In this document: in pieces, positions 28,043-64,000 of the stretch
How the letters are laid out: the number at the start of each line of letters is the position of its first letter
Numbering within the stretch: position 1 is the stretch's first letter
The notes under the pieces: model-generated
What the model was told of the DNA's origin: nothing
What the model saw: only the letters and a program-made list of their open reading frames with translations
Database searches by the model: none
DNA from: Actinobaculum massiliense
Lineage (GTDB): Bacteria; Actinomycetota; Actinomycetes; Actinomycetales; Actinomycetaceae
DNA: 64,000 nucleotides
Direction: 5' to 3'
Assembly (NCBI RefSeq): GCF_001457435.1
Contig: NZ_LN881717.1
Span: 1,063,339-1,127,338 of the forward strand
Translations under genes and position numbers: made by a program

Positions 28043-28044
28043 AA

Positions 28045-30622: not shown

Positions 30623-30624
30623 CG

Positions 30625-43074: not shown

Positions 43075-43121
43075 CGAAGTCTCCTTACGATTTTCGACAT
43101 AACAAAGATGATTAGCGCCGT

Positions 43122-45418: not shown

Positions 45419-45449
45419 CGAAATCGGCAAAAAACAGGGGTTTTTAAAC

Positions 45450-46280: not shown

Positions 46281-46282
46281 AA

Positions 46283-46349
46283 CTTCGGCGAGGAGAACGA
46301 GAGAGCTGGCTTGGTTTTTGCCGGCCTGCGTCGATTCTCCTCGCCGAAG
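46283..46349. terminator. Long inverted repeat between convergent methyltransferase and purL
   Basis: CTTCGGCGAGGAGAA (46283-46297) and its exact complement (46335-46349) form a 15-bp stem with a 37-base loop. There is TTTTT in the loop but none after the stem, so it may act as a factor-independent block only weakly. Confidence 0.5.
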
Positions 46350-46417
46350 CGTTGGTTGCGGGTTTAGGTTTTCGCCGAAGCGCTAGTTCCGCGGCTCAGC
46401 CCTCGCCGAAGCGCTAG
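46341..46417. repeat. 31-bp tandem repeat running into the purL stop codon
   Basis: TCGCCGAAGCG starts at 46341, 46372 and 46403, an exact 31-bp step. The second and third share the 15-mer TCGCCGAAGCGCTAG, and the last one includes the purL stop codon (TAG, 46414-46416). The first overlaps the terminator-like stem. Confidence 0.75.
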
Positions 46418-49400: not shown

Positions 49401-50130
49401 CCTGCACGCGCGGATCGGAAATCTCCACGTCTTCCAGAGAGGTGTTAAAAGTCGTGTGCCGGCAGTGGTCGGACCAGTAGGTGTCAATAACCTTTAGTTC
49501 GGTTTCCGTAGGTTGGCGCTCCTGGCTCTGGAAATAGGCCTGCACGAGCTGCAGGTCTTCCAGATCCATGGCGCAGGAATTATCGTCCAAATACTTTTGC
49601 AGGCGGGCAACGTCAAAGGAATTGAATCCTTCGACGCTTGCCACGGGTTCGGGGGAGGCGAAGTTCCGCTGCAGGCTTGCTGGGATCTGCAAGCTCACCT
49701 CTTGGGAATCCACCGGGTTGAGCAGGTACTTCTTAATCTGCGCAACTTCTTCGATGCTGAGGTCTCCGATCAGAACATAGACGCAGGCGTAGTTGACCAG
49801 CGGCTTGTCTACTTGCGAAAGCATCTGGATACAAACCGCGGCCGAATCGGCGCGTTGATCGTACTGGCCGGGAAGGTAGCTAATAGCAAATGCGGTAGAT
49901 CCGGCGGGCACCTCAAGTTCGGTGAAGAAATCGTCGAGTGGCGGCTGCGCGAATATATTGGTGACGGCGGAGTCAAAAACTTCCTTGCTCACCCCCTCGA
50001 CGTCGTAACGGTTGATAATGCGCAGATCACGCAAGCCGGGAACACCGAGCGCATCCCTCAGCTCTTGCGCCAACGAAGCCGCGCAAGGATTGGTTGCGGG
50101 TTTTGCCTCTACAAAGATGCGGTGGATCAT
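46414..50130 (-). CDS. purL: Phosphoribosylformylglycinamidine synthase, single-chain
   Basis: Converts FGAR to FGAM with ATP and glutamine (step 4). The 1238-residue protein includes the PurS-like N-terminus, two AIR-synthase-type ATP domains (DTYWSDHCRHTTFNT at about 227-241; FKNETHNHPTEIEPFGGAAT) and a C-terminal glutaminase with the nucleophile in GGICNGFQALIKLG. This is the clostridial-size form, shorter than the 1300-residue E. coli enzyme. A small insert NDNSAAFDNSANVG (about 610-623) is encoded by two copies of the dispersed repeat. Start overlaps purD stop by four bases. Confidence 0.95.
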   Translation of the reverse strand: MIHRIFVEAKPATNPCAASLAQELRDALGVPGLRDLRIINRYDVEGVSKEVFDSAVTNIFAQPPLDDFFTELEVPAGSTAFAISYLPGQYDQRADSAAVCIQMLSQVDKPLVNYACVYVLIGDLSIEEVAQIKKYLLNPVDSQEVSLQIPASLQRNFASPEPVASVEGFNSFDVARLQKYLDDNSCAMDLEDLQLVQAYFQSQERQPTETELKVIDTYWSDHCRHTTFNTSLEDVEISDPRVQDTYSTYLRIKNEIHPERPVTLMSMATLAMKKLRQDGKLQQLDESDEINACTIKVTVDVAGRDEEWLLLFKNETHNHPTEIEPFGGAATCIGGAIRDPLSGRSYVYAAMRVTGAGNPLTPLTATLPGKLPQRKIVTTAAQGYSSYGNQIGLATSFIDEVYDPSYVAKRLEIGAVLGAVRHADIKREQPAPGDLVVLIGGATGRDGIGGATGSSQAHKLESVDECGAQVQKGNAPEERKLQRLFRRPEVTRLVKKCNDFGAGGVCVAVGELAPGLDINLDAVYKKYAGLNATEVAVSESQERMALVIAPDDLADLARYCREENLRYAVVAKVTQEPVLKMTYLGQEAVRIDRTFLDTNGAPKRAKVRVNDNSAAFDNSANVGVSNWRTRLSELVQDLNHCSKEGLIQRFDSTIGSGTVLMPLGGKFQKTPTQAMVHKLPVPGLETSTCSVMAYGFNPAVSRIDPYRGAYEAVIDSVAKVVGTGGSPDQVHLSFQEYFPSLRDDPEKWGLPFASLMGAFQAQLDLEMAAIGGKDSMSGTFEQIEVIPTLVSFAVSLANLGNVVSQEFKQKNERIFLIAPPEHEGISKGYFAKLAALIAAGKVSASYSLTGSCVMEAAFKMSLGNRLGVQFADSFDPASGFDRICGGFLIAVPKDFPECEIISSDLLSGREIGVVVAEHALRAGNQSVDIATLQQSYEAKLEPVYPVHAKEEGRSGEARATYTAYRNRQVAQLYTGPAVSRPRVLIPVFPGTNCEFDTARAWEAAGATADVFVVKNLTVEDIEESIRGFATRLASSEILFLPGGFSGGDEPDGSAKFITSFLRNQQIASEITQLLEVRQGLIGGICNGFQALIKLGLLPYGKIMEPRADMPTLTHNQIQRHQSGIVNVRVCNTSSPWLQKAQLGGIYQVPISHGEGRVVGRVAAKNVATQYVDFEGRPTADIEFNPNNSLHAIEGMVSDCGRVFGKMGHAERFSAGTYQNVPGDYDMQIFGSAVTYFRG
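48271..48301. repeat. Two dispersed-repeat copies inside purL
   Basis: CGCGGAATTATCG (48271-48283) and GGCGGAATTATCG (48289-48301), 18 bp apart and in frame. On the coding strand they specify DNSA twice, in a loop with no counterpart known to me. Confidence 0.8.
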
Positions 50131-51404
50131 TTTCCTGCCTTAATCTCGAGTGCCTGGGCACCAATATCTGTACGGAAGTGTCTGTGAGGGAAGTGGATTT
50201 CTTTCACGTTCTCGTAAGCGGCGGCAACCGCTTCTTCGAGGGTCTGGCCGAAGCCGAGCACATTGAGCACCCGTCCGCCCGCGCTGATGAGCTCGCCCGC
50301 TGCAGTGCGTGCCACCCCAGCGAAAACCAGGTATGGAGCCACTCTCGCGGAGTAGGTAATCTTGGCGCCTTTGCGGGGGTGCTCCGGGTATCCAGCGGCG
50401 GCCATCACCACGCAGGCGGCAGCGCGATCCTCAAACTCAACGGGTACCGTCTCGAGTTCTCCGGCCGCCACCGCCTGAAAAATCTCCAGCAGATTCCCCC
50501 GCAGAAGCGGTAGCACCACCTGCGTTTCGGGATCGCCGAATCGGGCATTGTATTCAATAACCTTCAACCCCGATGGCGTATTCATCAGGCCGAAATAAAG
50601 GCATCCGCGAAAATCAATGCCGTCCGAGCGCAAGCCGGCGAGAGTTGGTTCCATGATTTTTTCCCGGAACTCCCGTTCCACCTCGTCGCTAAAGACGGGA
50701 TTCGGGGCGATCACACCCATCCCGCCCGTATTCGGACCGGCGCCGCCATCGAAAACACGCTTATGATCCATCGACGAAAGCAAGGGCTTGATTGTGTTGC
50801 CATCGCAGAAGCTCAGTACCGAAATTTCTGGCCCGGAGAGGAATTCTTCTAAAACCACTCGTGCCGAAGCATTTCCAAATTTGTGATCGAGCATGAAATT
50901 GCGAAGTGTTCGCTCGGCTTCGGCGGCGTCAGAAACGATCGAGACGCCCTTTCCGAGCGCCACCCCGTCCGCCTTAATAACGAGCGGATAGGCCGCCTGG
51001 CGCGCGTAGGCGAGCGCGGCATCGAAATCTTCGAAGCACTCGTAGGCGGCGGTGGGAATGCCGTGGCGAAGCATAAATTCTTTCGCGAAACTCTTCGAGC
51101 CTTCCAGCATCGCGCCGGCCTTCCGCGGCCCGAAGCAGGTGATTCCAGCATCTTCCAGGGCGTCCACCATCCCCAGAACTAGGGGATCGTCGGGGGTGAC
51201 GACGCAAAAATCGATGTGCTCTGCCCGGCAGAAATTGAGCACCGCCGGGATATCCGTCGCGCTGATTTCCGGATGTATTTGCGCAAAATCGCTCATTGCC
51301 GCGTTACCGGGAAGAACGTGGAGTTCTAGCTTCGGATTAGCTTCCAGGAGCTTCGTGGCAATGGCGTATTCGCGCCCGCCGCTGCCGATAATGCCCAGTT
51401 TCAT
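50127..51404 (-). CDS. purD: Phosphoribosylamine--glycine ligase
   Basis: Makes GAR from phosphoribosylamine, glycine and ATP (step 2). An ATP-grasp enzyme of 425 residues with MKLGIIGSGGREYAIATKL, ATP-binding KADGVALGKGVSIVSD, the GPNTGGMGV substrate loop and YNARFGDPETQVVLPLL. Length and motifs are normal. Confidence 0.96.
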   Translation of the reverse strand: MKLGIIGSGGREYAIATKLLEANPKLELHVLPGNAAMSDFAQIHPEISATDIPAVLNFCRAEHIDFCVVTPDDPLVLGMVDALEDAGITCFGPRKAGAMLEGSKSFAKEFMLRHGIPTAAYECFEDFDAALAYARQAAYPLVIKADGVALGKGVSIVSDAAEAERTLRNFMLDHKFGNASARVVLEEFLSGPEISVLSFCDGNTIKPLLSSMDHKRVFDGGAGPNTGGMGVIAPNPVFSDEVEREFREKIMEPTLAGLRSDGIDFRGCLYFGLMNTPSGLKVIEYNARFGDPETQVVLPLLRGNLLEIFQAVAAGELETVPVEFEDRAAACVVMAAAGYPEHPRKGAKITYSARVAPYLVFAGVARTAAGELISAGGRVLNVLGFGQTLEEAVAAAYENVKEIHFPHRHFRTDIGAQALEIKAGK

Positions 51405-51475
51405 GCCAGCTTCTTTTCTCTCGATGGATGCGGTTTTTTGGAACGTGACGTGGGGTCGAGACCCGGTGAAGAGGC

Positions 51476-52660
51476 TCAGTGGTGGAAGAGGCGCAAACCG
51501 TTGCAGGCCATGACGATTCCGCGCGCATTACATTCGGCGATCACTCCGGCGTCGCGAATTGAACCCCCGGGTTGGGCTACGTAGGAAACGCCGCTGCGGG
51601 CGGCCCGCTGGATATTGTCCGCGAAGGGGAAGAACGCATCTGAGGTGAGGCTTACTCCCGAAATTTCCGCCAGATAGTTGGCCTTGTCCTGCGCCGTGAG
51701 CGGTGCGGGTTGGGCGGTGAAGTACTTTTCCCATACGCCCGGAGCGCACACATCCTCTTCGTTCTGATTGATGTAGCCGTCGATCACGTTATCGCGGTCG
51801 GCGCGGTGCAACTCTTCCTTGAAAGGAAGTGCGAGGACCTGCGGATGCTGGCGCAAGAACCAGGTATCGGCTTTACTGCCCGCCAGCCGGGTGCAGTGGA
51901 TTCGCGACTGCTGGCCGGCCCCGACGCCGATGGCCTGCCCGTCGTAGGAGAAGCACACCGAGTTGGATTGCGTGTATTTCAAGGTGATCAAACCGAGCAC
52001 CAGATCCAGTTGCGCCGATTCGGGAAGCTCCTTCTTTTCCGTGACTATGTTTTCCAGCAGGGAGGCGTCGATTTTGGCGTCGTTGCGTCCCTGATGGAAG
52101 CTAATGCCGAAAACGGTTTTTACTTCTTGTTCGGCGGGTCGATAATTTCGATCAATAGTGAGCACGGTGTACTTCCCGCCACGCTTAGTTTTCAGAATTT
52201 CGAGCGCTTCCGCATCGTATCCGGGGGCGATGATTCCGTCCGAAACTTCCCGTCGAATGAGCTTCGCCGTCGTCACATCACAAACATCGGAAAGCGCGAT
52301 GAAATCACCAAAGGAGCAGAGGCGATCGGTGCCGCGAGCTCGAGCGTAGGCGCAGGCGAGCGGGGAACTATCCAGCTCCGGAATGTCGTCAACAAAAACG
52401 GCCTTTTTCAGCGCGGCCGGAAGCGGCTTACCGACCGCGGCGGACGTGGGCGAGACGTGCTTGAACGAGGCTGCGCAGGGCAGACCCGTGGCCTCCCGCA
52501 GTTCACTGACGAGCTGCCAAGAGTTCAAGGCGTCCAGCAAATTGATGTATCCCGGGCGGCCGTTTTCTACCGTCAGTGGCAGCTCGCTGCCATCAGCCAT
52601 GTCGATGCTGGCGGGTTTCTGGTGCGGGTTATTGCCGTATTTCAGCTCGAGGGATTTCAT
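51476..52660 (-). CDS. purH: AICAR formyltransferase, stand-alone
   Basis: Transfers formyl to AICAR (step 9). Only the transformylase domain is present, 394 residues from ATG 52660 (AGGAGCG in front): KYGNNPHQKPA, FKHVSPTSAAV, SFGDFIALSDVCD and the C-terminal GVSYVAQPGGSIRDAGVIAEC. The N-terminal IMP cyclohydrolase (MGS-like) domain of ordinary PurH is missing, so ring closure must come from elsewhere, namely the PurO domain in the next gene upstream. An open frame runs back to 52942 but has no family similarity there. Confidence 0.9.
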   Translation of the reverse strand: MKSLELKYGNNPHQKPASIDMADGSELPLTVENGRPGYINLLDALNSWQLVSELREATGLPCAASFKHVSPTSAAVGKPLPAALKKAVFVDDIPELDSSPLACAYARARGTDRLCSFGDFIALSDVCDVTTAKLIRREVSDGIIAPGYDAEALEILKTKRGGKYTVLTIDRNYRPAEQEVKTVFGISFHQGRNDAKIDASLLENIVTEKKELPESAQLDLVLGLITLKYTQSNSVCFSYDGQAIGVGAGQQSRIHCTRLAGSKADTWFLRQHPQVLALPFKEELHRADRDNVIDGYINQNEEDVCAPGVWEKYFTAQPAPLTAQDKANYLAEISGVSLTSDAFFPFADNIQRAARSGVSYVAQPGGSIRDAGVIAECNARGIVMACNGLRLFHH

Positions 52661-52754
52661 TGCGACGCTCCTGGGTTCCTCTGTTCTTGTGGGTTTGGGT
52701 TTTGCTGGGTTCGGGATTTGCGAGGTTTCCGATTTTGCTACCTCTTGTTTCCGA

Positions 52755-54167
52755 CTAGTCGCCGGTGTGCTTATTGAAAATCCGCACGGAACGCATCTTG
52801 AAAGTTTCCAAGTCCAAGACGCATTCGAGCAAAGAAATCTTGAATTCCGGATTGATCGCCTTCCAAATTTTCTCGCCCATGTTTTCCGTATACGCGAAAG
52901 CCACGGGTTCGCCGCTGAAACTCGGGAGCGGATCGCCATCATCGATATACGTGTGGATGCAGTGCCCGACGCCGGGAAGATAGGGGAACGTGTAGTCGAA
53001 ATGCACGGAGGCCGTGCCGGCGGGTGAAGCGGCTTTAATGATGTTCAACTCGTATCCATCCGGCCCCGCCAGCAGAGAAATGCGCGGCGTAAAGTTCGGT
53101 GCGTCCGGCTCGCAGTCGCGGCTCAGTAGCGCGGCGCTCGCGGTAATGCCCGCCTCGAGTCCGGCGCAAATCGTGCTGGTCTGGTCCCCGTTCGTGAGTA
53201 CGTGGGTGTCTTTATGCCGCCCGTACACCGGATAGATAATGAGGCTCGGATCCACGACCTTCTGCGCGTCGAACGCCTCGGTGCGGATAACCTCTCCGTC
53301 TTTTACAAAAACGCGATTTTGGCTGTTCGGGGAACGTCCCATAATGAAGTAAACAAGGGAAGCCGTCTGCCCGCGCTCGTCGACCGCCAGGGCCAAGGTA
53401 CGGCCGGGGTAGGTTTTTCCGCCAAGATACTCGGTGATCGAAGATGGGGTCATTTCCGTGTTCTTTTCTCTCGTTTTCTGTTCGGGGTTGGGGTCGGTTT
53501 TATGTTCGACTTGGGGGCCTGCCGCGGCAGTTTTCGTAGCGGGAAAAAGTTGTTCGCCCGACGCCGTTATATCCGCGCAAAGTTCCTCAATTACGCGCGG
53601 GAAAATGACATGCTCGACTTCGTTGAGAACGCGCGCTTGCAGGGTCTCGGGAGTGTCATCCGGATATACCCGCACTGTTTCCTGGGCGAGGATTTCACCG
53701 CCGTCGCAAACATCGTTTACTAGATGCACTGTTGCTCCGGAAACCTTCACTCCCGCTTTCAGTGCCGCGCGATGGACTCGCAGGCCATAGTAGCCAGGCC
53801 CGGAAAAAGCTGGAATCAGCGCGGGATGAATATTGACCAGCGGGCAGGGGCAGTTCGAGATGAATTCCGCGCTGAGAATCTTCAAGAAGCCCGCCAAAAC
53901 GACGAGCTGAATCCGCTGCTCTCGTAACAGACGGAGCAGGGCATCTTCGAAATTCGACCCGGAGGCGTATTCCGGGCCAGCGAGCACAGCCGTGGGTACC
54001 CCCGCAGTCCGCGCCCGGGTAATGCCGTAGGCTTGCGCCTTATTGCTTACGACCAGAACGGGATTGACGTGCGCAAGCGTTCCCGCAGCGACGCCGTCGA
54101 GAATCGCCTGAAGGTTGGTACCGCCCCCAGAAACCAGCACCGCAACTCGCGCCTTCGCTGTTGTCAT
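52755..54167 (-). CDS. GAR formyltransferase (PurN) fused to IMP cyclohydrolase (PurO)
   Basis: Two enzymes in one 470-residue frame. Residues 1-200 are PurN (step 3): VLVSGGGTNLQAI, catalytic VNIHPALIPAFSG and GATVHLVNDVCDGGEI. After a linker of about 35 residues (ATKTAAAG then EHKTDPNPEQK), residues 239-470 are a PurO-type IMP cyclohydrolase (step 10): EYLGGKTYPGRTLALAVDE, VYFIMGRSPNSQNRVF, YPVYGRHKDTHVLTNGDQT and GHCIHTYIDDGDPLPSF. An internal ATG at 53453 could also start PurO alone, but its binding site is weak. Confidence 0.88.
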   Translation of the reverse strand: MTTAKARVAVLVSGGGTNLQAILDGVAAGTLAHVNPVLVVSNKAQAYGITRARTAGVPTAVLAGPEYASGSNFEDALLRLLREQRIQLVVLAGFLKILSAEFISNCPCPLVNIHPALIPAFSGPGYYGLRVHRAALKAGVKVSGATVHLVNDVCDGGEILAQETVRVYPDDTPETLQARVLNEVEHVIFPRVIEELCADITASGEQLFPATKTAAAGPQVEHKTDPNPEQKTREKNTEMTPSSITEYLGGKTYPGRTLALAVDERGQTASLVYFIMGRSPNSQNRVFVKDGEVIRTEAFDAQKVVDPSLIIYPVYGRHKDTHVLTNGDQTSTICAGLEAGITASAALLSRDCEPDAPNFTPRISLLAGPDGYELNIIKAASPAGTASVHFDYTFPYLPGVGHCIHTYIDDGDPLPSFSGEPVAFAYTENMGEKIWKAINPEFKISLLECVLDLETFKMRSVRIFNKHTGD

Positions 54168-54237
54168 GACCGGGATTTCCTCTCCGCTACCACGCCGGCG
54201 CCTTCCGCCGTTCTTGCCGCATTCACCAGTTCCATTT

Positions 54238-54250
54238 CGATAATTCCGCG
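54238..54250. repeat. Dispersed repeat copy between purM and purN/purO
   Basis: CGATAATTCCGCG, exact inverse of the consensus, 5 bp beyond the end of purM in the 87-bp intercistronic gap. Confidence 0.75.
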
Positions 54251-54254
54251 AAAA

Positions 54255-55298
54255 TTACTCGAACTCCACAAGAGTTTCGGACTCCGCGACGCGCCCGAGC
54301 TTGTAGGCCGTTTCCCCGCTTTCCGAAAGGCTGGCGAGGACGGCGGGCACGTTTTCAGGCGCCACGATCGCCGTCATACCCACCCCCATATTGAAGGTGT
54401 TGAACATATCGTGCGTGGAGATGTTTCCGACCTTTTGGATGAGCGAAAAAATTGGGAGCACGCGCAGGGCGGCGCGATTAACGACGACGCCGTGGCCAGC
54501 GGGGAGCGAGCGGGGGATATTTTCGTAGAAACCACCGCCGGTAATATGCGCCAGGGACTTCACTAGTTTGCGCTCCAGTAGCTTGCCTACCGAGCGGACA
54601 TAGATTTTTGTGGGAGTGAGTAGCGTTTCCCCGAGAGTCTGACCGCCGAGTTCGGCATAGCTTTGCCTGAGGACCGAAAGGTCGGAGATTTGGAAGATCT
54701 TGCGGACCAGGGAAAAGCCGTTGGAATGTACGCCGGAGCTGCCGATGGCAATAACGGCGTCGCCCGCGTTAACGGTGTTCTTGTCGAGCACATTGGGGCG
54801 ATCGACTAGACCATTGCAAAAACCCGCTAGGTCGTATTCGTCTTCCGGATAGAAACCGGGCATTTCGGCGGTTTCTCCGCCTACTAGCGGAATTGCGGCC
54901 TGCTGGCAGCCGGCAGTGATGCCCTTGACGATTTCTTCGATGCGCGCCGGGTAGTTTTTTCCGCAGGCGATATAGTCGAGGAAATTTATGGGCATTGCTC
55001 CCACGCAAAGCACGTCATTGACGCACATTGCCACGCAGTCGATGCCGACCGTGTCGTGCTTATCCAGCAAGAAAGCAATTTTGAGTTTTGTGCCGACGCC
55101 GTCGGTAGAAGAAATAATGCAAGGCTGGCTCATGGCGCGCACGTCGAGGGGGAGCATTCCCCCAAAACCGGCACTATCAAAAGCCATGTTCTGTGGCATC
55201 GTGGCCTGGATGTGCTTTTGGATGCGTGCAACTGCCTCGTAGCCCGCCTCGATATCTACGCCCGCCTCTTTATATGTACGGGACTGAGAATCACGCAT
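54255..55298 (-). CDS. purM: Phosphoribosylformylglycinamidine cyclo-ligase (AIR synthetase)
   Basis: Closes the imidazole ring (FGAM to AIR, step 5). The 347-residue protein begins MRDSQSRTYKEAGVDIEAGY and has SSTDGVGTKLKIA, DCVAMCVNDVLCVGAMPINF, GGETAEMPGFY, and HITGGGFYENIPRSLPAG. ATG 55298 overlaps the purF end by 8 bases with GGAAAG in front; the open frame to 55457 is purF antisense to nothing and not family-like. Confidence 0.95.
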   Translation of the reverse strand: MRDSQSRTYKEAGVDIEAGYEAVARIQKHIQATMPQNMAFDSAGFGGMLPLDVRAMSQPCIISSTDGVGTKLKIAFLLDKHDTVGIDCVAMCVNDVLCVGAMPINFLDYIACGKNYPARIEEIVKGITAGCQQAAIPLVGGETAEMPGFYPEDEYDLAGFCNGLVDRPNVLDKNTVNAGDAVIAIGSSGVHSNGFSLVRKIFQISDLSVLRQSYAELGGQTLGETLLTPTKIYVRSVGKLLERKLVKSLAHITGGGFYENIPRSLPAGHGVVVNRAALRVLPIFSLIQKVGNISTHDMFNTFNMGVGMTAIVAPENVPAVLASLSESGETAYKLGRVAESETLVEFE

Positions 55299-57057
55299 TC
55301 TGCTTTCCAATCTTTGTAGTTGTGGCCCGCGCGGCTTCGGCGCGCAGTTCGGTTTCGCTACGTAGTGCTGTTTCGCCGCGCGATGTGGTTTCGCTGCGTG
55401 GAGCTGTTTCTCCGCGATGTGCGGGACTCGGGATGAGCAAGGTGGTGCCGCGCGCACGGGCTCTGGCGCGCGCAGCGCTCTTCATGCGCGAATCGTCGCT
55501 AGTGCGCGATGTGTTGCTAGTGCGCGATGCAGATTCGGCACTTTTGGCGGCGTCGGAACCTTCTATATATTCTGCTCCCGCCGCGGCTTCCTGGCGCGCG
55601 GCCTTCCGGGCGCGCAATGCGCGGCCGAAAGCGGCCTTATCGCCAGTCCAGCAGTAGGTGCAAAGCTTCTTTCTATCGATACCAATTGCCTTGACGATTC
55701 CGTCGAGAGATTGAAACTCCAGCGAAGTGAAACCGAATCTTTCAGCGAGGCTGTGGCGAAGATTCTTGCCCCGCTCCGTATCCTTGTCCGCGTATTCGTC
55801 GATGTGCTTGAACCCGGGCTCGCCCTCAAATTCCATAATGATTCGGCGAGTAATCAGTTCTAGCTCGGAATTCGAAGCGGAGAAATTGAGGAATGGGCAC
55901 GAGTACATCATGGGCGGGCAGGCTGACCGCATGTGTACTTCCTTAGCACCATTGGCTTTGAGGAACTCTACGGTTTGGCGTAGCTGCGTGCCGCGTACGA
56001 TCGAATCGTCGACAAAAAGAATATTTTTGCCGTCGATGAGTTCTTTGACCGGTACCTGTTTCATCCGCGCGATCCGATTGCGGGAGCCCTGAAGATGAGG
56101 CATAAACGAGCGGGACCAGGTGGGGGTGTACTTGATGTAACAACGGGCGAACTTCACGCCACTTTGAAATGCGTATCCCATGGCGTGTGGTACCCCGGAA
56201 TCCGGCATGCCGCTGATGTAATCGAGCTTCGAGAACAGCTCGGGATCATTTTCTTCTTCCGCCATAATCTCGCCGTTGCGATTACGCATAATCTCGACGT
56301 TCACGCCTTCGTAAGTCGAGGTGGGATAGCCGTAGTAGTTCCACATGAACGAGCAGATTTGCATTTCTGTGCTCGGGGCGGCTAATTGCTCCATGCCCTC
56401 AGGGGTGATCTCGGAGATTTCATTGGGACCTAGCTCGCAAACATACTCGTAGCCGAGTTTTTCGAAAGCGAAAGATTCTAAGGCGAGCGCGTAACCGTCT
56501 TCATCCTGACCAATGATGATGGGAAGTCGCCCGAGTCTGTCACGGCCGGCGATGAGGCGACCGTCGTCGAGCATGAGGACGAGGCTACAGCTCCCTTCCA
56601 CGCGCTCTTGGGCGTAGCGAATGCCGGCGGTGAATGTGTCTTGCGTGTTAATTAATGCCGAAACTAATTCGGTGGGATTAATTCGGCTGGCGCTCTGGGT
56701 GTTGAAATGAATGCCGTGAGTTTCGAGAAGTTCGTCGCGGAGTTCGGAAAGGTTATTTATAACGCCGACGAAGGATATGGCGTATGTGCCCAAATGTGAG
56801 GAGATGATGAGCGGCGAGGGGGCGTCGTCGGCGATGCAGCCGATGCCGGAGGTGCCGTGAAACTCGGTGAGAAAATCGGAAAAGCGAGAGCGGAAAGAGT
56901 TTTTTTGAATGCTGTGGATTTCGCGGTTGTATCCCAGTTTTTTATCCCAAAGAGCCAGGCCGGCGCGGTAGTTTCCTAGATGGCTGTGGTAATCGGTACC
57001 GAAGAATACGTCTTCTTCGATCTGTCGGCGAGACGTGATTGCGAAAAAACCGCCCAA
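55291..57057 (-). CDS. purF: Amidophosphoribosyltransferase-like protein without N-terminal cysteine
   Basis: Expected to form phosphoribosylamine from PRPP (step 1). Start is TTG 57057, with GGAAGGG 6 bases upstream, giving MGGFFAITS, as in clostridial members; a GTG frame from 57096 adds 13 unmatched residues. The true PurF has Cys at position 1 after processing (CGVFG); here Gly/Phe stand in its place. The PRTase part is complete, with PRPP loop LFVDDSIVRGTQL and YIKYTPTWSRSF. The last 85 residues are low-complexity hexapeptide repeats (see findings). Confidence 0.82.
   Translation of the reverse strand: MGGFFAITSRRQIEEDVFFGTDYHSHLGNYRAGLALWDKKLGYNREIHSIQKNSFRSRFSDFLTEFHGTSGIGCIADDAPSPLIISSHLGTYAISFVGVINNLSELRDELLETHGIHFNTQSASRINPTELVSALINTQDTFTAGIRYAQERVEGSCSLVLMLDDGRLIAGRDRLGRLPIIIGQDEDGYALALESFAFEKLGYEYVCELGPNEISEITPEGMEQLAAPSTEMQICSFMWNYYGYPTSTYEGVNVEIMRNRNGEIMAEEENDPELFSKLDYISGMPDSGVPHAMGYAFQSGVKFARCYIKYTPTWSRSFMPHLQGSRNRIARMKQVPVKELIDGKNILFVDDSIVRGTQLRQTVEFLKANGAKEVHMRSACPPMMYSCPFLNFSASNSELELITRRIIMEFEGEPGFKHIDEYADKDTERGKNLRHSLAERFGFTSLEFQSLDGIVKAIGIDRKKLCTYCWTGDKAAFGRALRARKAARQEAAAGAEYIEGSDAAKSAESASRTSNTSRTSDDSRMKSAARARARARGTTLLIPSPAHRGETAPRSETTSRGETALRSETELRAEAARATTTKIGKQNA
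55352..55423. repeat. 18-bp tandem repeats in the purF 3' end
   Basis: Four 18-bp units start at 55352, 55370, 55388 and 55406 (GTTTCGCTRCGTAGTGCT-like). On the coding strand they give six-residue units RGETAP, RSETTS, RGETAL, RSETEL. A second set, TGCGCGATG..GCTAG, recurs at the same 18-bp step near 55498-55529. Confidence 0.8.
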
Positions 57058-57081
57058 TGCTAACCCTTCCGGTTTCGAAGT

Positions 57082-57134
57082 TCTCGGCAGGCCCACGCGG
57101 GCTCTCTGCGCACGCCCGGGTGAGCCTGCCGAGA
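57082..57134 (-). promoter_or_regulatory. Intercistronic hairpin between purC and purF
   Basis: TCTCGGCAGGC (57082-57092) and its exact complement GCCTGCCGAGA (57124-57134) lie between the purC stop and the purF TTG. No U-tract follows, so it is more likely an mRNA processing or stability element, or attenuation, than a full terminator. Confidence 0.55.
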
Positions 57135-57149
57135 GTTTCTTAGCTACGA

Positions 57150-57833
57150 CTAGAAGAAGAGCTTGTTCAGCTCGAGGGGCTCGACGTACTTGCCGTCGCG
57201 GTAGACGCGCATATTTCCGGCGGAAATTTCGTCGATAAGGATCACTTCGCCGTCGGCGTCGTAACCGAACTCGAACTTGATGTCGTACAGATCGAGGTCA
57301 CGCTTACGCATTTCTTCCGCGACGACGGCGGTGATTTCTTGCGTCGCCACCTTGGTCGCCTCGTACTGTTCGGGGCTCATAACGCCCAAATCAACGAGGG
57401 CATCCTTGGTCACGAGCGGATCGCCCTTTTCGTCGTTCTTGAAGGTCATCTCCACGTAGGCGGGAAGATCCTGGCCGAGCTCACAGTATTCGCTGTAGCG
57501 ACGGTAGAACGAGCCGACGGCCTTGTAACGGCAGATAACCTCGAGGCCCTTGCCGAACACGGTGCAGGGAAGAACTTCCATCGTGTTGTTCTCAGGATCG
57601 GAAGAAACCCAGTGGGTCTTGATGCCCTTTTCCTTGAGAATTTCGAAGAAATAGGTGGTCATCTTGAGGTTGATCGCGCCGATTCCATTGATAGAAAGGC
57701 CAACCTGGTTCTCGCCCGGATCGAACTTTCCGTCCTTGCCGGTGACGTCATCCTTGAACTTGAGGGCGTAGTTGCCGTTCTCCAGCGCGAAAACGTCCTT
57801 GGTCTTTCCTTTGTAAACGAGCTTGTTTTCCAT
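57150..57833 (-). CDS. purC: Phosphoribosylaminoimidazole-succinocarboxamide synthase
   Basis: Joins aspartate to CAIR (step 7). The 227-residue protein has [42 protein letters not shown] and [12 protein letters not shown]. Size and motifs are those of the short bacterial SAICAR synthase. Confidence 0.95.
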
Positions 57834-57890
57834 CTTTAATCCTTCGTGGTTGTGCTACTTGTTTGCTGTTTGCGAGGGCGGTTCTCTGGG

Positions 57891-58391
57891 CTATTTTTCG
57901 GAGGAATACTGCGCGGAGATTTGGGCGTTCTTTGCCAGAATTGCCTGAGTACTCTCCTCGCGCTGCGCCGCTAATTTTTGGGCGAGTTCGTCATCCGAGA
58001 CTGCGAGGATCTCGCAAGCGAGAATGGCGGCGTTCTTAGCGCCGTCGATCCCAACGGTGGCAACGGGAATTCCCGGAGGCATCATTACGGTGGCGAGCAG
58101 GGCATCCATTCCGTCGAGAGCCTTTGATTTGCAAGGGATGCCGATGACGGGAAGCGTGGTATTAGCGGCGAGCACACCGGCCAGGTGAGCGGCCATGCCA
58201 GCCGCCCCGATAATTACGCCATATCCGTCGTTTTTCGCGTTACGTGCGAAAGCGATAGCCGCATCGGGAGTGCGGTGCGCGGAGTACACGTTGACCGTGA
58301 AGTCAGCACCTATTTCCCGAAGATAATTGATTGCTTTTTCTAGAGTGGGCAGATCTGAATCCGACCCCATTACGATGCCGATTTTTTTCAC
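57891..58391 (-). CDS. purE: N5-CAIR mutase / AIR carboxylase PurE
   Basis: Makes CAIR (step 6). The 166-residue protein has the catalytic [15 protein letters not shown] and [12 protein letters not shown] motifs. The later segment [22 protein letters not shown], then DGAKNAA, differs from the usual LSIVQMPxGVPVAT of class I. purK is not adjacent, so it may use CO2 or bicarbonate directly. First gene of the operon. Confidence 0.92.
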
Positions 58392-58904
58392 GGATCCTCA
58401 GCTTTTCCAAATAGAGAGGGCGGGTGGCGTCACTGCGATGGCACCCGGACGAATACTCGATTGCTACTTTGGTTTTTTGCTGCCAGTTCGGTTTAAACCC
58501 CCAGTCGCCAGAGTTTGATTTACGGGCTTAATCTAGCAACGGGGTTTCCTGCTGTCCACGCAAAACGGCCCAAGGTCCATATAGCGATACAAAAATTCGC
58601 TGAAAAGTCCATTATGTGGAAAAACGGGATAAAGGCGGGAATTTAGAAAGGTGATATTTTTAGGGTTTTACCAAGGGTTTTAGTGATTCTTGAAACCGTT
58701 TTGATTGTTAGCACACAGTTGTCTCTCTCCCGCCTTCCCCGCGGCGATGATTCCGCGTTTTTGCACTGGCTTCCCGTGTGTCCGCCTCGTCGGCCGCACG
58801 CTAAGTGCCCGCTTGCCCGCCTTCTCCGAGGCGACAATTCCGTGCTTTGTGAAAGCTCGTCCCTGAAAGTGGTGGAAGGTTATTTTGGCCGGATAGTCTG
58901 AGGT
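58392..58904. promoter_or_regulatory. Leader/promoter region of the purine operon
   Basis: A 513-bp gap between the divergent purE and GNAT genes. A likely minus-strand promoter is TGGACA - 17 bp - TAGATT (complement of 58530-58558). Downstream in the leader is GTTCGGTTTA (58486-58495), the complement of TAAACCGAAC, which fits the core of the Bacillus PurR box (WWWCCGAAC). Two diverged dispersed-repeat units occupy 58745-58757 and 58832-58844. No riboswitch fold was recognised. Confidence 0.5.
58745..58844. repeat. Two longer dispersed-repeat copies upstream of the GNAT gene
   Basis: CGATGATTCCGCG (58745-58757) and CGACAATTCCGTG (58832-58844). Both are preceded by GCCTTCYCCGMGG and followed by a T-rich tract with GC, so the repeat unit here is about 30 bp. 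Confidence 0.7.
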
Positions 58905-59570
58905 GTGGTGAAATCAAGGCAACAACCAATTGAACCCCGGCACGTAGTTGTTCGGCGGGTTCGGCATAGCGACATTCCTGTGTGGCAAGAGTTGTCCATC
59001 GCAACCTTCAGCGAAACCTTCGGACATTTGTACGCAGAATCTGATCTCGAAAACTTCTTGCGCGAGACGTATTCCCGTGAGGCCTTGGAAGCAATCATCA
59101 ACGACGATTCCTGCGCGGTGTGGTTAGCTTTTTCGCCCCGGGCAGACGCTGCGGCGGCGACGGCATCGGTGGCAAAAAACGCGGAACCATCGCCAGGGGT
59201 TACCTATACCGGTGGCGAGGTTAAAAGCGCGGAACCATCGCGCGGCGGGGAAGGTGAGGCGATCGCCTATGTGGTGGCAGCGCCCTGCGCTTTACCGCAT
59301 CCGGAAGCGAGCGCCGACGACGGCGAGGTGCGGCGTCTTTATGTGCGGCAGGGATATCAGGATTGGGGTCTGGGCTCGCGCTTGATAACGCTGGCCCTAG
59401 AGTGGCTTTTGGCGAAGAATCCGCGGCAGTTGTGGCTCGGTGTGTGGTCAGAAAATTACGGGGCACAGAGATTTTACGAGCGATTCGGCTTCTCCTATGC
59501 GGGCGAATATGGCTTTAAGGTGGGCGAGCATCGTGACCGTGAGTTTATGTATCGGCGCAAAATTAGGTGA
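58905..59570 (+). CDS. GNAT family N-acetyltransferase
   Basis: A 221-residue acyl-CoA-dependent acetyltransferase. N-terminal VVVRRVRHSDIPVWQELSIA and SEDLENFLRETYS, the core VRRLYVRQGYQDWGLGSRLI, whose RLYVxxxYQxxGxGxxL acyl-CoA loop is typical, and GVWSENYGAQRFYERFGF. A hydrophilic insert (about 70-125) is encoded by two dispersed-repeat copies 48 bp apart (59180 and 59228), reading NAEPSPG and SAEPSRG. Substrate unknown. Start GTG 58905. Confidence 0.87.
   Translation: MVKSRQQPIEPRHVVVRRVRHSDIPVWQELSIATFSETFGHLYAESDLENFLRETYSREALEAIINDDSCAVWLAFSPRADAAAATASVAKNAEPSPGVTYTGGEVKSAEPSRGGEGEAIAYVVAAPCALPHPEASADDGEVRRLYVRQGYQDWGLGSRLITLALEWLLAKNPRQLWLGVWSENYGAQRFYERFGFSYAGEYGFKVGEHRDREFMYRRKIR
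59180..59240. repeat. Two dispersed-repeat copies inside the GNAT gene
   Basis: CGCGGAACCATCG twice, at 59180-59192 and 59228-59240, exactly 48 bp (2 x 24) apart, in frame, encoding AEPS. Confidence 0.85.
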
Positions 59571-59603
59571 GATTACTCCGGTAAAATCCGCGCGCGCAAA
59601 TAT

Positions 59604-59616
59604 CGCGGAATCTTCT
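59604..59616. repeat. Variant repeat copy in the convergent gap
   Basis: CGCGGAATCTTCT lies between the convergent GNAT and oxidoreductase genes and has the same ATC to TTC change as the copy at 44906. Confidence 0.5.
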
Positions 59617-59635
59617 CTCGGGAATCGTGGTGAAG

Positions 59636-60286
59636 CTACTTAGTGAGCTTTTTCCAATCGGCTAGTTCAAGGCGCGCGCCAAAGGCGGGCCCGTTTGGCT
59701 CGATTATTTGCGCCCGAGCGCTGGGTAGCAGATACGGGTCGAAGCCTATCGAGTCGATGAATTCGCCAACGATTTTTTGCGCAGCGGGATCATCGCTCAC
59801 AACTCCGAGGGCGCGGCGCCCGGGCTCTCCTGCTTGCCGCGCCTCTGCCGTGAGTTCCGTATAAGCCGCGTGGTTGAGGGTTTTCACAACGCGCAGGTTT
59901 GGGTACGTAGTCGCAATTGGCGAGAAACCCTGCGGGTTCGCCTTGCTTTCCATTGGTTCCGAAGAATCCGCGGAATTATCGAGGGCGGGGGAGGTATAGG
60001 TCGTTTCCCATGCGTTCGTCGCATCGACGATGATTCCGCGAGTTTTATCGAGGTCTAAATCTGCAAGGGCCGACTGTGGAACGGCGAGAATGATGATGTC
60101 CGCGATCTGTTTCATTTCCTCAAGCGGCAACGTGCTTGAGTCCGGAAGCATGACGGAAATGGTGAGTTCACGAATTGAATCCTCGGGTCGGGAGAGCAAG
60201 AAAAGTTCGTGGCCCGCGTTCGCCACTAATCGCCCGATTGCGGTGCCAAGTTTCCCCACTCCGATGATTCCGACTTTTTTAGTCAC
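59636..60286 (-). CDS. NADPH-dependent F420 reductase-like oxidoreductase
   Basis: The 216-residue protein has the Rossmann start VGIIGVGKLGTAIGRLVANA, ADIIILAVPQSAL and, after an insert, VVKTLNHAAY, as in NADP-binding F420 oxidoreductases and related proteins. Actual F420 use is unproven. The insert SPALDNSADSSEPMES (about 103-118) contains a repeat copy encoding DNSA (59969-59981) and a second copy lies at 60028-60040. It is divergent from the flavin-dependent gene. Confidence 0.8.
   Translation of the reverse strand: MTKKVGIIGVGKLGTAIGRLVANAGHELFLLSRPEDSIRELTISVMLPDSSTLPLEEMKQIADIIILAVPQSALADLDLDKTRGIIVDATNAWETTYTSPALDNSADSSEPMESKANPQGFSPIATTYPNLRVVKTLNHAAYTELTAEARQAGEPGRRALGVVSDDPAAQKIVGEFIDSIGFDPYLLPSARAQIIEPNGPAFGARLELADWKKLTK
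59969..60040. repeat. Two dispersed-repeat copies inside the oxidoreductase gene
   Basis: CGCGGAATTATCG (59969-59981) and CGATGATTCCGCG (60028-60040), facing in opposite directions. Confidence 0.75.
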
Positions 60287-60413
60287 GGCTAGACGCTAAC
60301 ACCTCTAGATTAGTAGTACAATATTCAACTAAAATTAGGTAGGGTTTTGGCGATACGAGCTTCGGCGTCGTTACAAAAAGACGGAAACTTTGAAAAGTGC
60401 TGGGATGCGGAAA

Positions 60414-60426
60414 CGCGGAACTATCG
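60414..60426. repeat. Dispersed repeat copy upstream of the LLM gene
   Basis: CGCGGAACTATCG, 36 bp before the start of the flavin-dependent oxidoreductase gene, where it lies inside its 5' untranslated region. Confidence 0.7.
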
Positions 60427-60461
60427 GGTCTGTCGGAGATCCGGCACGGAGGGAAAACGAT

Positions 60462-61505
60462 ATGGAAAAGTACCACTTCGGAATTGATACTTTCGGCGAC
60501 GTTACCGCCGACTCAAATGGCGCACCCCTCCATCAGGCCCAAGTTATTCGCAATGTTGTGGAAGAAGCGGTGCTCGCCGATTCTCTCGGCATTGATAGTT
60601 GGAACTTGGGCGAGCACCATCGCGATGATTACGCGATTTCTGCGCCGGATGTTGTGCTGGCTGCGATCTCTCAACGCACGGAAAACATCAAGCTTTCAAC
60701 GGCGGTGACAGTTTTGAGTTCCGATGACCCGGTGCGTGTAGCCGAACGGTTCGCTACTCTCGACGCGCTTTCCCGCGGCCGAGCCGAAATCATCGTTGGG
60801 CGCGGGTCGTTTACTGAATCCTTCCCACTTTATGGCTATGACCTCGCCGATTATGAGGCGCTTTTCAATGAAAAGCTCGCCATGCTCGTGGAAATTCTGC
60901 GATCGAATGGTGAAGCGGTGAGTTGGAAGGGTGGGCAACACACTCAGTCCCTGAATAAGACGTCGATCTATCCGCCCTTCGAAGGTGACGTGATGAAGAT
61001 GTGGGTGGCGGTGGGCGGCAGCCCTGAATCGGTGGTGCGCGCCGCGCATTATCGGCTCCCGCTGATGCTTGCGATTATCGGTGGCCCGACCAAGAGATTC
61101 GCGCCATTTGCCGAGCTTTATCGCAAGGCGTGGCGCCAGTTCGAAAACGCGGAAACACCGGAAATCGGGTATCACTCCTACGGGTACGTCGCGGAAAGCG
61201 ATGAGCAGGCCATCGACGAGTTCAAGGGCTATTACATTGAGGTGAATTCGCGACTTGGCCGCGAGCGGGGCTGGCGACCCCCGTCTGATGAGGCCTTCGC
61301 TTACGAGGTAAAACACGGGGCGATGGCTGTTGGCTCTCCGGAAACGGTTGCGCGGAAAATTGCGCAGGGCATTCGTGATCTTGGCGCGAACCGATATGAC
61401 TTGAAGATCTCGTATGGTCGGCAAGCCCACGAACTCAACCTCAAGTCGATTCGGCTGTACGGCGAAAAAGTGATTCCGCTCGTGCGGGAAATGTTGGCGG
61501 AGTAA
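60462..61505 (+). CDS. LLM class flavin-dependent oxidoreductase
   Basis: A luciferase-like monooxygenase of 347 residues from ATG 60462 (GGAGGG upstream). It has the (beta/alpha)8 start KYHFGIDTFGDVTADSNG, LGIDSWNLGEHHRDDYA, IKLSTAVTVLSSDDPVRVAE and GRAEIIVGRGSFTESFPLYG. Such enzymes use FMN or F420; the substrate is not predictable. The divergent oxidoreductase may supply reduced cofactor. Confidence 0.88.
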   Translation: MEKYHFGIDTFGDVTADSNGAPLHQAQVIRNVVEEAVLADSLGIDSWNLGEHHRDDYAISAPDVVLAAISQRTENIKLSTAVTVLSSDDPVRVAERFATLDALSRGRAEIIVGRGSFTESFPLYGYDLADYEALFNEKLAMLVEILRSNGEAVSWKGGQHTQSLNKTSIYPPFEGDVMKMWVAVGGSPESVVRAAHYRLPLMLAIIGGPTKRFAPFAELYRKAWRQFENAETPEIGYHSYGYVAESDEQAIDEFKGYYIEVNSRLGRERGWRPPSDEAFAYEVKHGAMAVGSPETVARKIAQGIRDLGANRYDLKISYGRQAHELNLKSIRLYGEKVIPLVREMLAE

Positions 61506-61636
61506 TCGCCAGCAACGAGGGAGACGTCGTTGGAGCCGATATTTTGGGCTGGGTTGGCGACGCACATCGGTAATGAATAAGGGCGACCTTTTGGCTTCCT
61601 GACGCTAGTTAGTGGAGCCTTGCCTGCCTGGAGATC

Positions 61637-62362
61637 TTGCCCGAGGCCGTGCAGAGTTGGGGTATGGGGACAGGTGTCGATAACCAACTGCGTTGTGCAG
61701 GGTGCGGAATCCTTGGGTACCTTCAAAGGTCGACGACGGCGCACGTGCGCGCCCACGTGCACACACGCGGGCATCTCCTTCGCGATAATTCCGCGAGAGT
61801 TGCAGGCGATAATTCCGCGAAAACTGAGGCGTTAGACCACGAGGGAGTAAATCGCCTGCGGGCCGGTGTGCTTGGCGCAAATGACGGAATTGTTTCGACC
61901 GCTGCCGTTGTCCTGGGAGTGGCTGGAGCATCTTCATCCTCTGGAGCTATTGCCATTGCTGGATTTGCCGCATTGATTGGCGGCGCGATTTCGATGGCTC
62001 TTGGCGAGTATGTCTCCGTTGCAAGTCAGCGAGATTCAGAGCGTGCAGCGCTCAGGCGTGAGGGAAAAACTGTCCAAAATAGGGAGCTTGTTTCACCGCT
62101 GGGAGCTGCCTTGGCGTCGTTCTTTTCGTTCATTGTTGGCGCTCTCGTTCCTCTTTTGGCGGTCATAGTTCCTCCAGTTGAATTGCGTATTCCCATCGCC
62201 TTTGCCGCCACTCTGATCGCGCTCGCGACCACTGGATATGTTTCCGCGCGTATTGGAGGTTCGCGTCCTTTTCGACCAACTTTCCGGGTAACTCTCGGAG
62301 GATTCCTGGGTCTGGGCGCGACTTTTCTTATCGGATATCTCTTTGGTGTGATCGTTGCTTAG
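61637..62362 (+). CDS. VIT1/CCC1 family transporter
   Basis: Likely an iron or manganese transporter. The core starts at about residue 70: GVNRLRAGVLGANDGIVSTA, SSSSGAIAIAGFAALIGGAI, SMALGEYVSVASQRDSERA, then three C-terminal helices (within about 148-241). The N-terminal 65 residues are unusual, with DNSARVAGDNSAK from two repeat copies at 61783 and 61807, 24 bp apart, and no clear start signal; translation may begin later, close to 61840. Confidence 0.82.
   Translation: MPEAVQSWGMGTGVDNQLRCAGCGILGYLQRSTTAHVRAHVHTRGHLLRDNSARVAGDNSAKTEALDHEGVNRLRAGVLGANDGIVSTAAVVLGVAGASSSSGAIAIAGFAALIGGAISMALGEYVSVASQRDSERAALRREGKTVQNRELVSPLGAALASFFSFIVGALVPLLAVIVPPVELRIPIAFAATLIALATTGYVSARIGGSRPFRPTFRVTLGGFLGLGATFLIGYLFGVIVA
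61783..61819. repeat. Two dispersed-repeat copies at the VIT gene start
   Basis: CGATAATTCCGCG at 61783-61795 and 61807-61819, exactly 24 bp apart. Confidence 0.85.
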
Positions 62363-62373
62363 CAGTTGGGCTG

Positions 62374-62514
62374 GACGAAATTATCGGGACTTGAGCTAAA
62401 GCGCGGAACTATCGCGCGCAAAATGCGCGGAATCATCGTTCGCACAAATCTCGGAATGATCGAACACGTAGAAAGCGCGGAATTATCGCATGAGTAGAAA
62501 GCTCGGAATTATCG
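62374..62514. repeat. Five-unit array of the dispersed repeat
   Basis: Units start at 62402 (CGCGGAACTATCG), 62426 (CGCGGAATCATCG), 62450 (CTCGGAATGATCG), 62476 (CGCGGAATTATCG) and 62502 (CTCGGAATTATCG), at steps of 24, 24, 26 and 26 bp. A partial sixth, GAAATTATCG, precedes them. Between units lie variable 11- to 13-base segments with AAA before each core. It fills the gap between the convergent VIT and membrane-protein genes. It has too short a unit for CRISPR. Confidence 0.85.
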
Positions 62515-62527
62515 TGTGGGGGTAAAA

Positions 62528-62561
62528 AGCGGGTGGGAGCGCTTTTGCGCTCCCACCCGCT
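62528..62561. terminator. Strong bidirectional terminator
   Basis: AGCGGGTGGGAGCGC, loop TTTT, GCGCTCCCACCCGCT: a perfect 15-bp stem. On the minus strand it is followed by CTTTTTA, a good U-tract, so it mainly ends the membrane-protein gene transcript. Confidence 0.9.
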
Positions 62562-62614
62562 GGTGGTATTTAGTTCGTTACCGAGGATATGAGCCGGCGA
62601 TGCCGTGCTCGGCG

Positions 62615-63577
62615 TTAGTTGTTCTCGGTGGCGTCCTCGACCACGTCCTTGGCTTTATCGGCCAGTTCCTGAGCCTTGTCAGCACCATCCTCGGCCGCAT
62701 GCTGAGCAGTGGATGCTGCCCGCTTTCCAGACTCCTTCGCCGAATCGGCGAGGTCTTCGGCCTTATCCTTGGCTGAATCAGCCAGGTCCTCAGCCTTTTC
62801 CTTCGCCTGCTCAGCTACGTCGCCAGCCTTCTCAGCCGCATCTTCAGCGCCATCGGCAACCTTGGCAACGGCGTCGTCGTCGGCAGACTCCTCGGAAGGA
62901 TTATCGACATCCGCCCAGTAGGACTCGGCCCAAGGATCTTCGGTGGGCTGGCTGCGCTTCCACAGGAAGTAGACCGCAACGCCGAGCCCGCCTACCAGAG
63001 CGAGAGTGCCGAAGACCTTGCCGCCGCGAGAACGCTTCTTCTGCGGCTCCGGCGTCTGCAACTCACGCGATGCGCTGCGGCCAACCTTCTTAGCCGTCTC
63101 AGCAACATTGCCGTCGTAGTCGCGCGCGGCATCGGCCGCGGCCTGCCAAGCGCGATGGGCGCGGGGCAGGTAATCGTTCTTCACCTTCTCCGCCAAGCCA
63201 GATCCGGCATCCTTTGCGTCGTCGATATAAGGCTGAGCCTTGCTCTTCGCATCCTCGATGTACGGCCGGGCCTTGTCGGCCGCTTCCTCCAGATACGGAC
63301 GCGCCTTATCCGCGATTTCCTGGGCGCGCGGGGCCGCCCAGTCATAACCCTGCTTGGCGTAATCCTGCAACTTCTCGTTGGCGGCCTTCGCGTACTCCTG
63401 CACATCAGAAGCAGCGTGCTTGGCCTGGCGCTCGAAGCGCTTCGAATAGAACTTGCCCTTCAGCTTCGCCTTCTTCGCGCGCTTGTCAGCCTCTGAACGC
63501 AGAGAATCGATTTGATCGAGAATGCGATCGACCTCTTCCTGCGCCTTCTTTTCGGCGTGCGTCTTACCAAAACTCAT
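62615..63577 (-). CDS. Hypothetical membrane protein with helical (LEA/apolipoprotein-like) repeats
   Basis: A 320-residue protein of unknown function. Residues 1-180 are amphipathic helix with repeats such as ADKARPYLEEA, ADKARPYIEDA, KSKAQPYIDDA; one membrane helix follows (about 192-215, VFGTLALVGGLGVAVYFLW), and an acidic helix-repeat tail (AEDLADSAKDK units, 11 residues). Ala/Lys/Glu-rich repeats like these occur in YtxH and late-embryogenesis-type stress proteins. Terminated by the hairpin at 62528-62561. Confidence 0.7.
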   Translation of the reverse strand: MSFGKTHAEKKAQEEVDRILDQIDSLRSEADKRAKKAKLKGKFYSKRFERQAKHAASDVQEYAKAANEKLQDYAKQGYDWAAPRAQEIADKARPYLEEAADKARPYIEDAKSKAQPYIDDAKDAGSGLAEKVKNDYLPRAHRAWQAAADAARDYDGNVAETAKKVGRSASRELQTPEPQKKRSRGGKVFGTLALVGGLGVAVYFLWKRSQPTEDPWAESYWADVDNPSEESADDDAVAKVADGAEDAAEKAGDVAEQAKEKAEDLADSAKDKAEDLADSAKESGKRAASTAQHAAEDGADKAQELADKAKDVVEDATENN

Positions 63578-63754
63578 GGAACGACCTCCTATTGTTTACG
63601 CGGAGGTTCTCCCCGCGGAATTTTCACTTGCCTATTCTTCCACCATTTGGCGGCTGAATGTCACTCAAGTCACGCTACCCGAGGATCTTTCACAAATGGC
63701 CGATTTCAGGAGGTTGTTCGGCGTTCCGCGCAACTCTGTGCGAGGATATAGCCC
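63578..63754. promoter_or_regulatory. Divergent promoter region
   Basis: 177 bp separate the membrane-protein gene and the cyclophilin gene, which are transcribed apart. AGGAGGTCG-like Shine-Dalgarno sequence precedes the minus-strand ATG (complement of 63585-63592). No further motif recognised. Confidence 0.4.
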
Positions 63755-64000
63755 ATGAACGCTATTTTTCATACGAGTGAAGGTGACATCGCGGTAGAGC
63801 TCTACCCCGAGCAAGCCCCCGAAACCGTCGCCAACTTTACGGAGCTGGCAACCGGAAAGCGCGAGTGGACCGATCCCGCAACGGGTAAGAAGAATTCGGA
63901 GCCGCTGTACGACGGCACCATTTTCCACCGCGTCATCTCCGGTTTCATGATTCAAGGTGGCGATCCGCTGGGCAACGGTACCGGTGGACCGGGATACACG
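63755..64000 (+). CDS. Peptidyl-prolyl cis-trans isomerase (cyclophilin type), 5' part
   Basis: The first 82 residues of a cyclophilin; the window ends within the gene. It starts [20 protein letters not shown], with [14 protein letters not shown] and the catalytic segment [20 protein letters not shown], in which Arg, Phe and Gln contact the proline substrate. Cytoplasmic, without a signal. This gene is also a usual neighbour of the actinobacterial origin (Mtb ppiA Rv0009). Confidence 0.95.

Follow-up and report, generated by a model that had tools for sequence, protein, structure and literature searches.

A possible chromosome-organising domain of about 242 sites of 22 bp in 181 kb beside the replication origin of Actinobaculum massiliense

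Introduction

Between two convergent genes of Actinobaculum massiliense, five repeat units succeed one another at steps of 24, 24, 26 and 26 bp, raising the question of whether they form a self-contained array or belong to something larger. The initial annotation of the window, that is, the whole stretch of 64,000 nucleotides analysed here (C4:1063339-1127338 on contig C4), had offered two ideas for these units, iteron-like protein binding and growth by unit duplication. Here we follow the repeat from the array to the whole genome and its relatives, and weigh the explanations for its distribution.

Results

The array and its surroundings

A search of the window with the core CGCGGAAYYATCG, allowing up to two mismatches, gave 49 matches against 12.07 expected, a number reached in none of 100 shuffles, and 43 of the 49 are situated after 41 kb. 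The five units were recovered with the spacing given above, as were the two nearby pairs that had been reported, 24 and 48 bp apart. The features concerned are:

62374..62386, + strand: weak look-alike (a sixth) ahead of the array, GACGAAATTATCG; 3 core mismatches, not a weight-matrix match
62402..62414, + strand: array unit 1, core CGCGGAACTATCG; exact core, weight-matrix score 18.2
62426..62438, + strand: array unit 2, core CGCGGAATCATCG; exact core, score 29.1
62450..62462, + strand: array unit 3, core CTCGGAATGATCG; 2 mismatches, score 23.4
62476..62488, + strand: array unit 4, core CGCGGAATTATCG; exact core, score 31.2
62502..62514, + strand: array unit 5, core CTCGGAATTATCG; 1 mismatch, score 27.9
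61783..61819, - strand: site pair 24 bp apart inside the VIT-family gene; exact cores at 61783 and 61807
59180..59240, + strand: site pair 48 bp apart inside a GNAT-family gene (Acetyltransf_1); exact cores at 59180 and 59228
61637-62362, + strand: VIT-family gene, left of the array
62615-63577, - strand: YtxH-like gene, right of the array; best Pfam matches below curated cut-offs
62528..62561, no strand assigned: 15-bp perfect inverted repeat between the array and the convergent gene; terminator-like on the + strand in a scan, poor T run

The convergent setting of the array was borne out, as was the adjoining perfect stem. The interval holding the array is 252 bp long in this genome, against 401 bp in G001, a genome of the same genus. 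The last two units, which share GTAGAAAG, are the only part of the array that resembles a duplication, possibly one of 26 bp. An Rfam search of the window at gathering score returned two tRNAs only, with no described RNA element at the array. Elsewhere in the window, a protein that is PurF-like by eye (55291-57096) carries a long, partly repeated C-terminal tail rich in Ser, Arg and Glu.

The array is a dense local patch of a chromosomal domain of about 242 sites. An iteron array consists of direct repeats beside a Rep gene and is confined to an origin; here the sites spread over 181 kb in both orientations, also inside genes, and the neighbours of the array are VIT-family, YtxH-like and luciferase-like genes, so that neither a plasmid-type iteron array nor the term iteron-like could be retained.

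A 22-bp site with partial dyad symmetry

The 2.07-Mb genome holds 90 exact copies of the core, 45 on each strand, against none of the reversed pattern used as a control, and 86 of the 90 fall within 177 kb (C4:1108218-1285450). An iterative weight matrix extended the core to a 22-bp site, CGnA(A/G)A(A/T)(A/T)nCGCGGAATYATCG, with about 24 bits over 30 columns and the perfect form CGATAATTCCGCGGAATTATCG. This matrix matched 258 times in C4:1104363-1285438 and once in 81 kb of flanks; dinucleotide shuffling of the domain, repeated ten times, left 0-3 matches. Both strands score at 16 of the sites, so the 258 matches correspond to 242 distinct sites. As threshold we took the sixth-best score from 11 control stretches (219 kb), and about 5 chance matches are therefore expected in the domain. 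Since the threshold was taken from them, these stretches, which include the left flank with its match, are not independent, and the independent controls are the shuffles and the exact-core search.

Within the core, one letter predominates at positions 2-5 and 10-12 (frequency 0.93-0.99) and at positions 0, 1 and 6 (0.75-0.88), while positions 7 and 8 alternate between T and C and position 9 between A and T. The left half correlates with the mirrored right half at 0.37 (226 sites, those scoring on both strands excluded; p = 0.0017 when bases and 0.07 when columns are permuted), a partial dyad symmetry broken at positions -7, -6, -3, -2 and -1. Beyond the 22 bp, no flanking position of 83 intergenic matches reaches 0.2 bits except -40 (0.21) and +18 (0.32). 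The sites are clustered, with 110 pairs within 80 bp (126 match pairs less 16 double readings of single sites) against 38.7 expected. The 22-bp site, its partial dyad symmetry and its variation at set positions make protein binding the better of the two original ideas.

Position on the chromosome

Three landmarks locate the domain within the window:

25043..25525 (C4:1088381), + strand: dnaA (Bac_DnaA match)
41025..64000, no strand: window part of the motif domain (C4:1104363-1285438); its left edge is the match at 41025
17126, 18359, 18494, 18542, 19936 and 30625 (span 17126..30640), no strand: conventional parS-like sites with 0-2 mismatches, outside the motif domain

The left edge is sharp, as evidenced by the lack of any weight-matrix match in C4:1050379-1104363 and 14 in the 5-kb bin from 1103339. 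GC skew is -0.03 in the bin from C4:1083339 and +0.07 in the one from 1093339; from the position of dnaA together with this change of sign, oriC was taken to be nearby. The skew is negative in six control stretches at 250-1020 kb and in the left flank, and beyond 1400 kb it is positive in two of three control stretches, the third giving -0.011. The domain thus begins about 15 kb from dnaA and extends to about 197 kb on one replichore, the right arm, with single exact cores only on the opposite side of the origin (C4:1034405 and 821497), a one-sidedness that depends on the assembly of contig C4 (1,619,143 bases), cross-checked by skew alone. Our first reading, a terminus domain, was dropped as dnaA and the skew change put the domain beside the origin. 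Rearrangement was set aside as the cause of the one-sidedness, despite the different order of blocks in G001: the gene order here (gyrA, tRNAs, a gene that is PPIase-like by eye and a PASTA kinase gene) fits the usual actinobacterial order.

Past the right edge, no exact core occurs in C4:1285450-1409530. A prophage with capsid, tape-measure and tail genes lies about 4 kb beyond that edge (C4:1288864 onward; 1526-20000 of its piece), with two large serine recombinases and apparently inserted in an hsdM-like gene; given the long core-free stretch, the prophage alone is unlikely to be the cause of the edge. Site density inside the domain is uneven, with gaps of up to 10 kb over conserved genes. 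The idea that motif-poor stretches are recent imports was dropped, C4:1204-1258 kb being largely colinear with G001.

Sites relative to genes

Noncoding DNA is the denser, with 88 matches in 28.5 kb (about 3 per kb, including copies in the GNAT and VIT genes, both missed by the gene finder) against 169 in 147.4 kb of coding DNA (1.15 per kb); with these two genes excluded, 83 of the 258 matches are intergenic. Codirectional, divergent and convergent gaps carry 3.4, 2.6 and 2.8 matches per kb, neither promoters nor gene ends are favoured, and orientation is near even (30 versus 22), with no strong preference. Among 102 copies inside genes with at most one mismatch, 50 fall in the Asp/Asn-Ser-Ala frame, 27 in the Ala-Glu-Ser/Leu-Ser frame and 17 in the Arg-Gly-Ile frame, as would be expected for a DNA motif tolerated where the protein permits. 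TTA codons, considered as a sign of selection, are weak in this respect, with only 5 inside motif copies.

The spacing of the array recurs elsewhere in the domain, where 79 same-strand pairs within 80 bp include 10 with a step of 24 bp, one of 25 bp and five of 26 bp. Noncoding same-strand pairs favour 24-26 bp (12/42), and in coding same-strand pairs the spacing is a multiple of three in 32 of 35.

How the copies arose

The orthologous genes of G001 allow the history of part of the copies to be judged. Among 62 coding matches in genes with an ortholog in 200 kb of that genome, 41 align without indels and 21 lie in gapped parts; in a separate count covering 37 core matches, 28 were aligned and 9 fell in gaps. 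At the 41 indel-free copies, G001 differs from the core by 6.0 letters on average, against 1.17 here, a value that is low by selection of the matches and that comes from a mismatch count allowing A or T at position 9. At least 2 of 5 residues are shared at 25 of these copies and at most 1 of 5 at the other 16, so that the alignment is weak there; in three fully conserved peptides the differences are purely synonymous, 0 here against 2, 3 and 3 in G001. In 26 of 27 syntenic gaps the difference in intergenic length does not follow copy number (Spearman -0.004, a test of low power). One gap, omitted for its size, exceeds its counterpart in G001 by 2,101 bp and contains 6 copies.

These observations bear on a first alternative, that a short repeat was spread locally by copying, through a mobile element, template switching or unit duplication, and has no binder. 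Tandem clusters are indeed present and a few have identical or similar spacers, and the 21 matches in gapped alignment and the six copies in the omitted gap fit such spreading. The idea that the array grew by unit duplication accordingly holds for a few clusters. One of these, C4:1263767-1263851, has three in-gene copies (1263767, 1263803 and 1263839) 36 bp apart with an identical spacer, a clear unit duplication of the motif. For most it fails: spacer similarity in 60 tandem neighbour pairs barely exceeds that between random copies (0.29 versus 0.27 upstream, 0.36 versus 0.30 downstream), the 26 counted gaps are not lengthened by copies, the flanks beyond 22 bp are near-uninformative and variation falls at set positions. 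REP/MITE-type mobile repeats were rejected for the 41 of 62 coding matches and the 26 of 27 gaps taken together. Indel-free alignment and the absence of gap lengthening indicate substitution rather than insertion as the source of most copies open to judgement, suggesting that, for the alignable part, the copies arose largely in place; insertion is possible for the 21 coding matches in gapped parts. We consider local copying without a binder unlikely.

Another alternative is a Chi-like or uptake-sequence-like motif, serving recombination, repair or DNA uptake, that accumulated through biased exchange of this segment, for instance because it is transferred more often than the rest. Like uptake sequences, the sites number about 1.3-1.4 per kb, have an A-tract next to a core, are enriched in noncoding DNA and fall in codon frames that tolerate them, and the prophage near the right edge could be counted on the same side. 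Chi-like and uptake-sequence motifs are genome-wide, however, whereas just 4 of the 90 exact copies lie outside the domain and its edges are sharp rather than graded. We judge such an exchange motif distinctly improbable, and a DNA uptake sequence as such was rejected on the confinement of 86 of 90 exact copies to 177 kb.

Relatives and the native character of the domain

Across 213 genomes of the family, 90 contain at least one exact core and none has more than five except the genome of the window itself, which is also the only one of 394 genomes of the class with a close-pair pattern within 180 bp. The pair pattern was found in 33 stretches among named bacterial and archaeal genomes, a set that may omit near relatives, and in 4 stretches of viral contigs; six of the 33, examined by letter, resemble local tandem arrays. 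DNA identity to G001 is 65-78% in three matching pieces. Orthologs of much of C4:1126-1183 kb are present in that genome, and those of C4:1189-1278 kb lie colinear on its contig C28. No exact core occurs in the 200 kb of G001 compared first and one in its whole genome. The domain DNA is native, with colinear orthologs in G001 that lack the motif.

Import of the segment by homologous exchange, from a donor carrying the motif genome-wide, would account for the sharp edges, and a tetranucleotide classifier separates the domain from the rest (0.83 leave-one-out against a base rate of 0.63). The separating words are partly motif-like, however, and the composition distance between domain and controls (0.177) is near that within controls (0.164), against 0.232 between controls and G001. 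No donor appeared in the 213 family genomes nor, for close pairs, in the 394 class genomes, and apart from the colinear orthologs, the one domain protein tested was closest to G001 (83%) among the 213 family genomes, 135 of them matching. We therefore regard import as a poor prospect.

A similar motif was sought in the G001 region, where only a CRISPR-like array, parS, the word CGGCGTCG, DnaA-box-like words and a 7-copy word stood out. The CRISPR-like array (contig C25, about 3684-8900 of its piece) has about 85 repeats of GGAAATACCTCCGCGCGTGCGGAGAAGAG. Over-representation of the word CGGCGTCG, with CGACGACG, extends to both genomes of the genus and to DNA within and beyond the domain, so that it is possibly a second, genus-wide motif.

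Discussion

Least probable of all, and very unlikely in our view, is that the sites serve as operators for a common transcription factor, its regulon being situated here by coincidence, since, although a partial palindrome could serve as an operator, 169 matches lie in coding DNA with no orientation or promoter preference, and about 242 sites fall in one stretch against 4 of 90 exact cores elsewhere.

The distribution invites comparison with proteins that organise chromosomes. RacA has a MerR-like head with a coiled coil and acts in polar anchoring through DivIVA, and its ram motif has a different sequence from the motif here and fewer sites. The genome has three MerR_1 matches, from which homology to RacA is not established. 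In Bacillus subtilis, RacA is described as sporulation-specific, with many binding sites that are concentrated in a 250-kb region to one side of oriC (PMC4949633); the sites here are likewise many, dispersed, origin-proximal and one-sided. The 13-bp matS of Escherichia coli is described as having 23 copies in Ter (PMC3116907). MatP/matS is the nearest analogue in motif-defined confinement, a short motif being confined to, and defining, one domain, but matS is the palindrome GTGACRNYGTCAC in the terminus, whereas here another sequence lies near dnaA on one replichore, with about 242 sites in 181 kb.

The centre of the motif, TAATTCCGCGGAATTA, resembles the Noc site. A Noc paralogue was dropped as a candidate binder, as the genome gave one HTH_ParB match only (C4:1080944-1081234), its single ParB, and a second ParB-family protein was not found in it; the motif also differs from parS, TGTTTCACGTGAAACA, and the parS-like sites lie separately at C4:1080464-1093963. 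The sites of Noc (NBS) and SlmA (SBS) are reported as palindromic and dispersed, about 70 and 24-52 in number, unevenly spread and under-represented only in Ter (PMC4726725), which makes both less close analogues, and RefZ sites are given as five (PMC6657595). We do not claim membership in the RacA/ram, MatP/matS, Noc, SlmA or RefZ systems.

Tandem units with nearly the same core were found in Oceanobacillus massiliensis (GCGCGGAATTATCGCGAGAA, period 20, 32 exact 12-letter cores per genome) and Ornithinibacillus caprae (AGCGGAACCATCGGACACAGG, period 21, 9 exact 12-letter cores per genome), arrays that were selected by a search pattern for this very core; in contrast to the present genome, they are few and local and form no single domain. 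The Oceanobacillus massiliensis arrays (3871-4463 and 4252-5092 of two pieces), from another phylum, have a 20-bp period unsuited to coding.

The reading that we favour, with the chances for and against it evenly balanced, is that the array is a cluster of putative protein-binding sites, and that the about 242 sites mark an origin-proximal stretch of 181 kb on the right replichore. From the distribution in this one genome, a sequence-specific DNA-binding protein, probably a dimer, would read the 22-bp site; the many sites per domain and the clusters at 24-26 bp may favour cooperative binding; and the bound domain might, by analogy with RacA/ram and MatP/matS, behave as a single origin-flanking unit that is folded, anchored or marked. 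Counted against this reading were that no binder was found, that the dyad symmetry is incomplete and that confinement to a single replichore is unusual. The fuller proposal, which we advance tentatively as falling a little short of an even chance, is an undescribed chromosome-organising system, in which about 242 22-bp sites with sharp edges arose in 181 kb largely by base substitutions, even in conserved genes, apparently after the split from the closest relative compared. A search of published literature for the core or for such a domain gave no paper on such a motif, judged by title or abstract opening.

If this proposal is true, the domain would distinguish the right arm from the left and, to our knowledge, no sequence-defined chromosomal domain would be denser. 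A DNA motif is known to define only a few of the domains of bacterial chromosomes, and this one would have ten times the sites of matS, adjacent to the origin and on one arm. As a genome of the same genus has the genes but not the motif, the domain is apparently young, and its birth, together with its cost to the proteins that it crosses, could be followed base by base.
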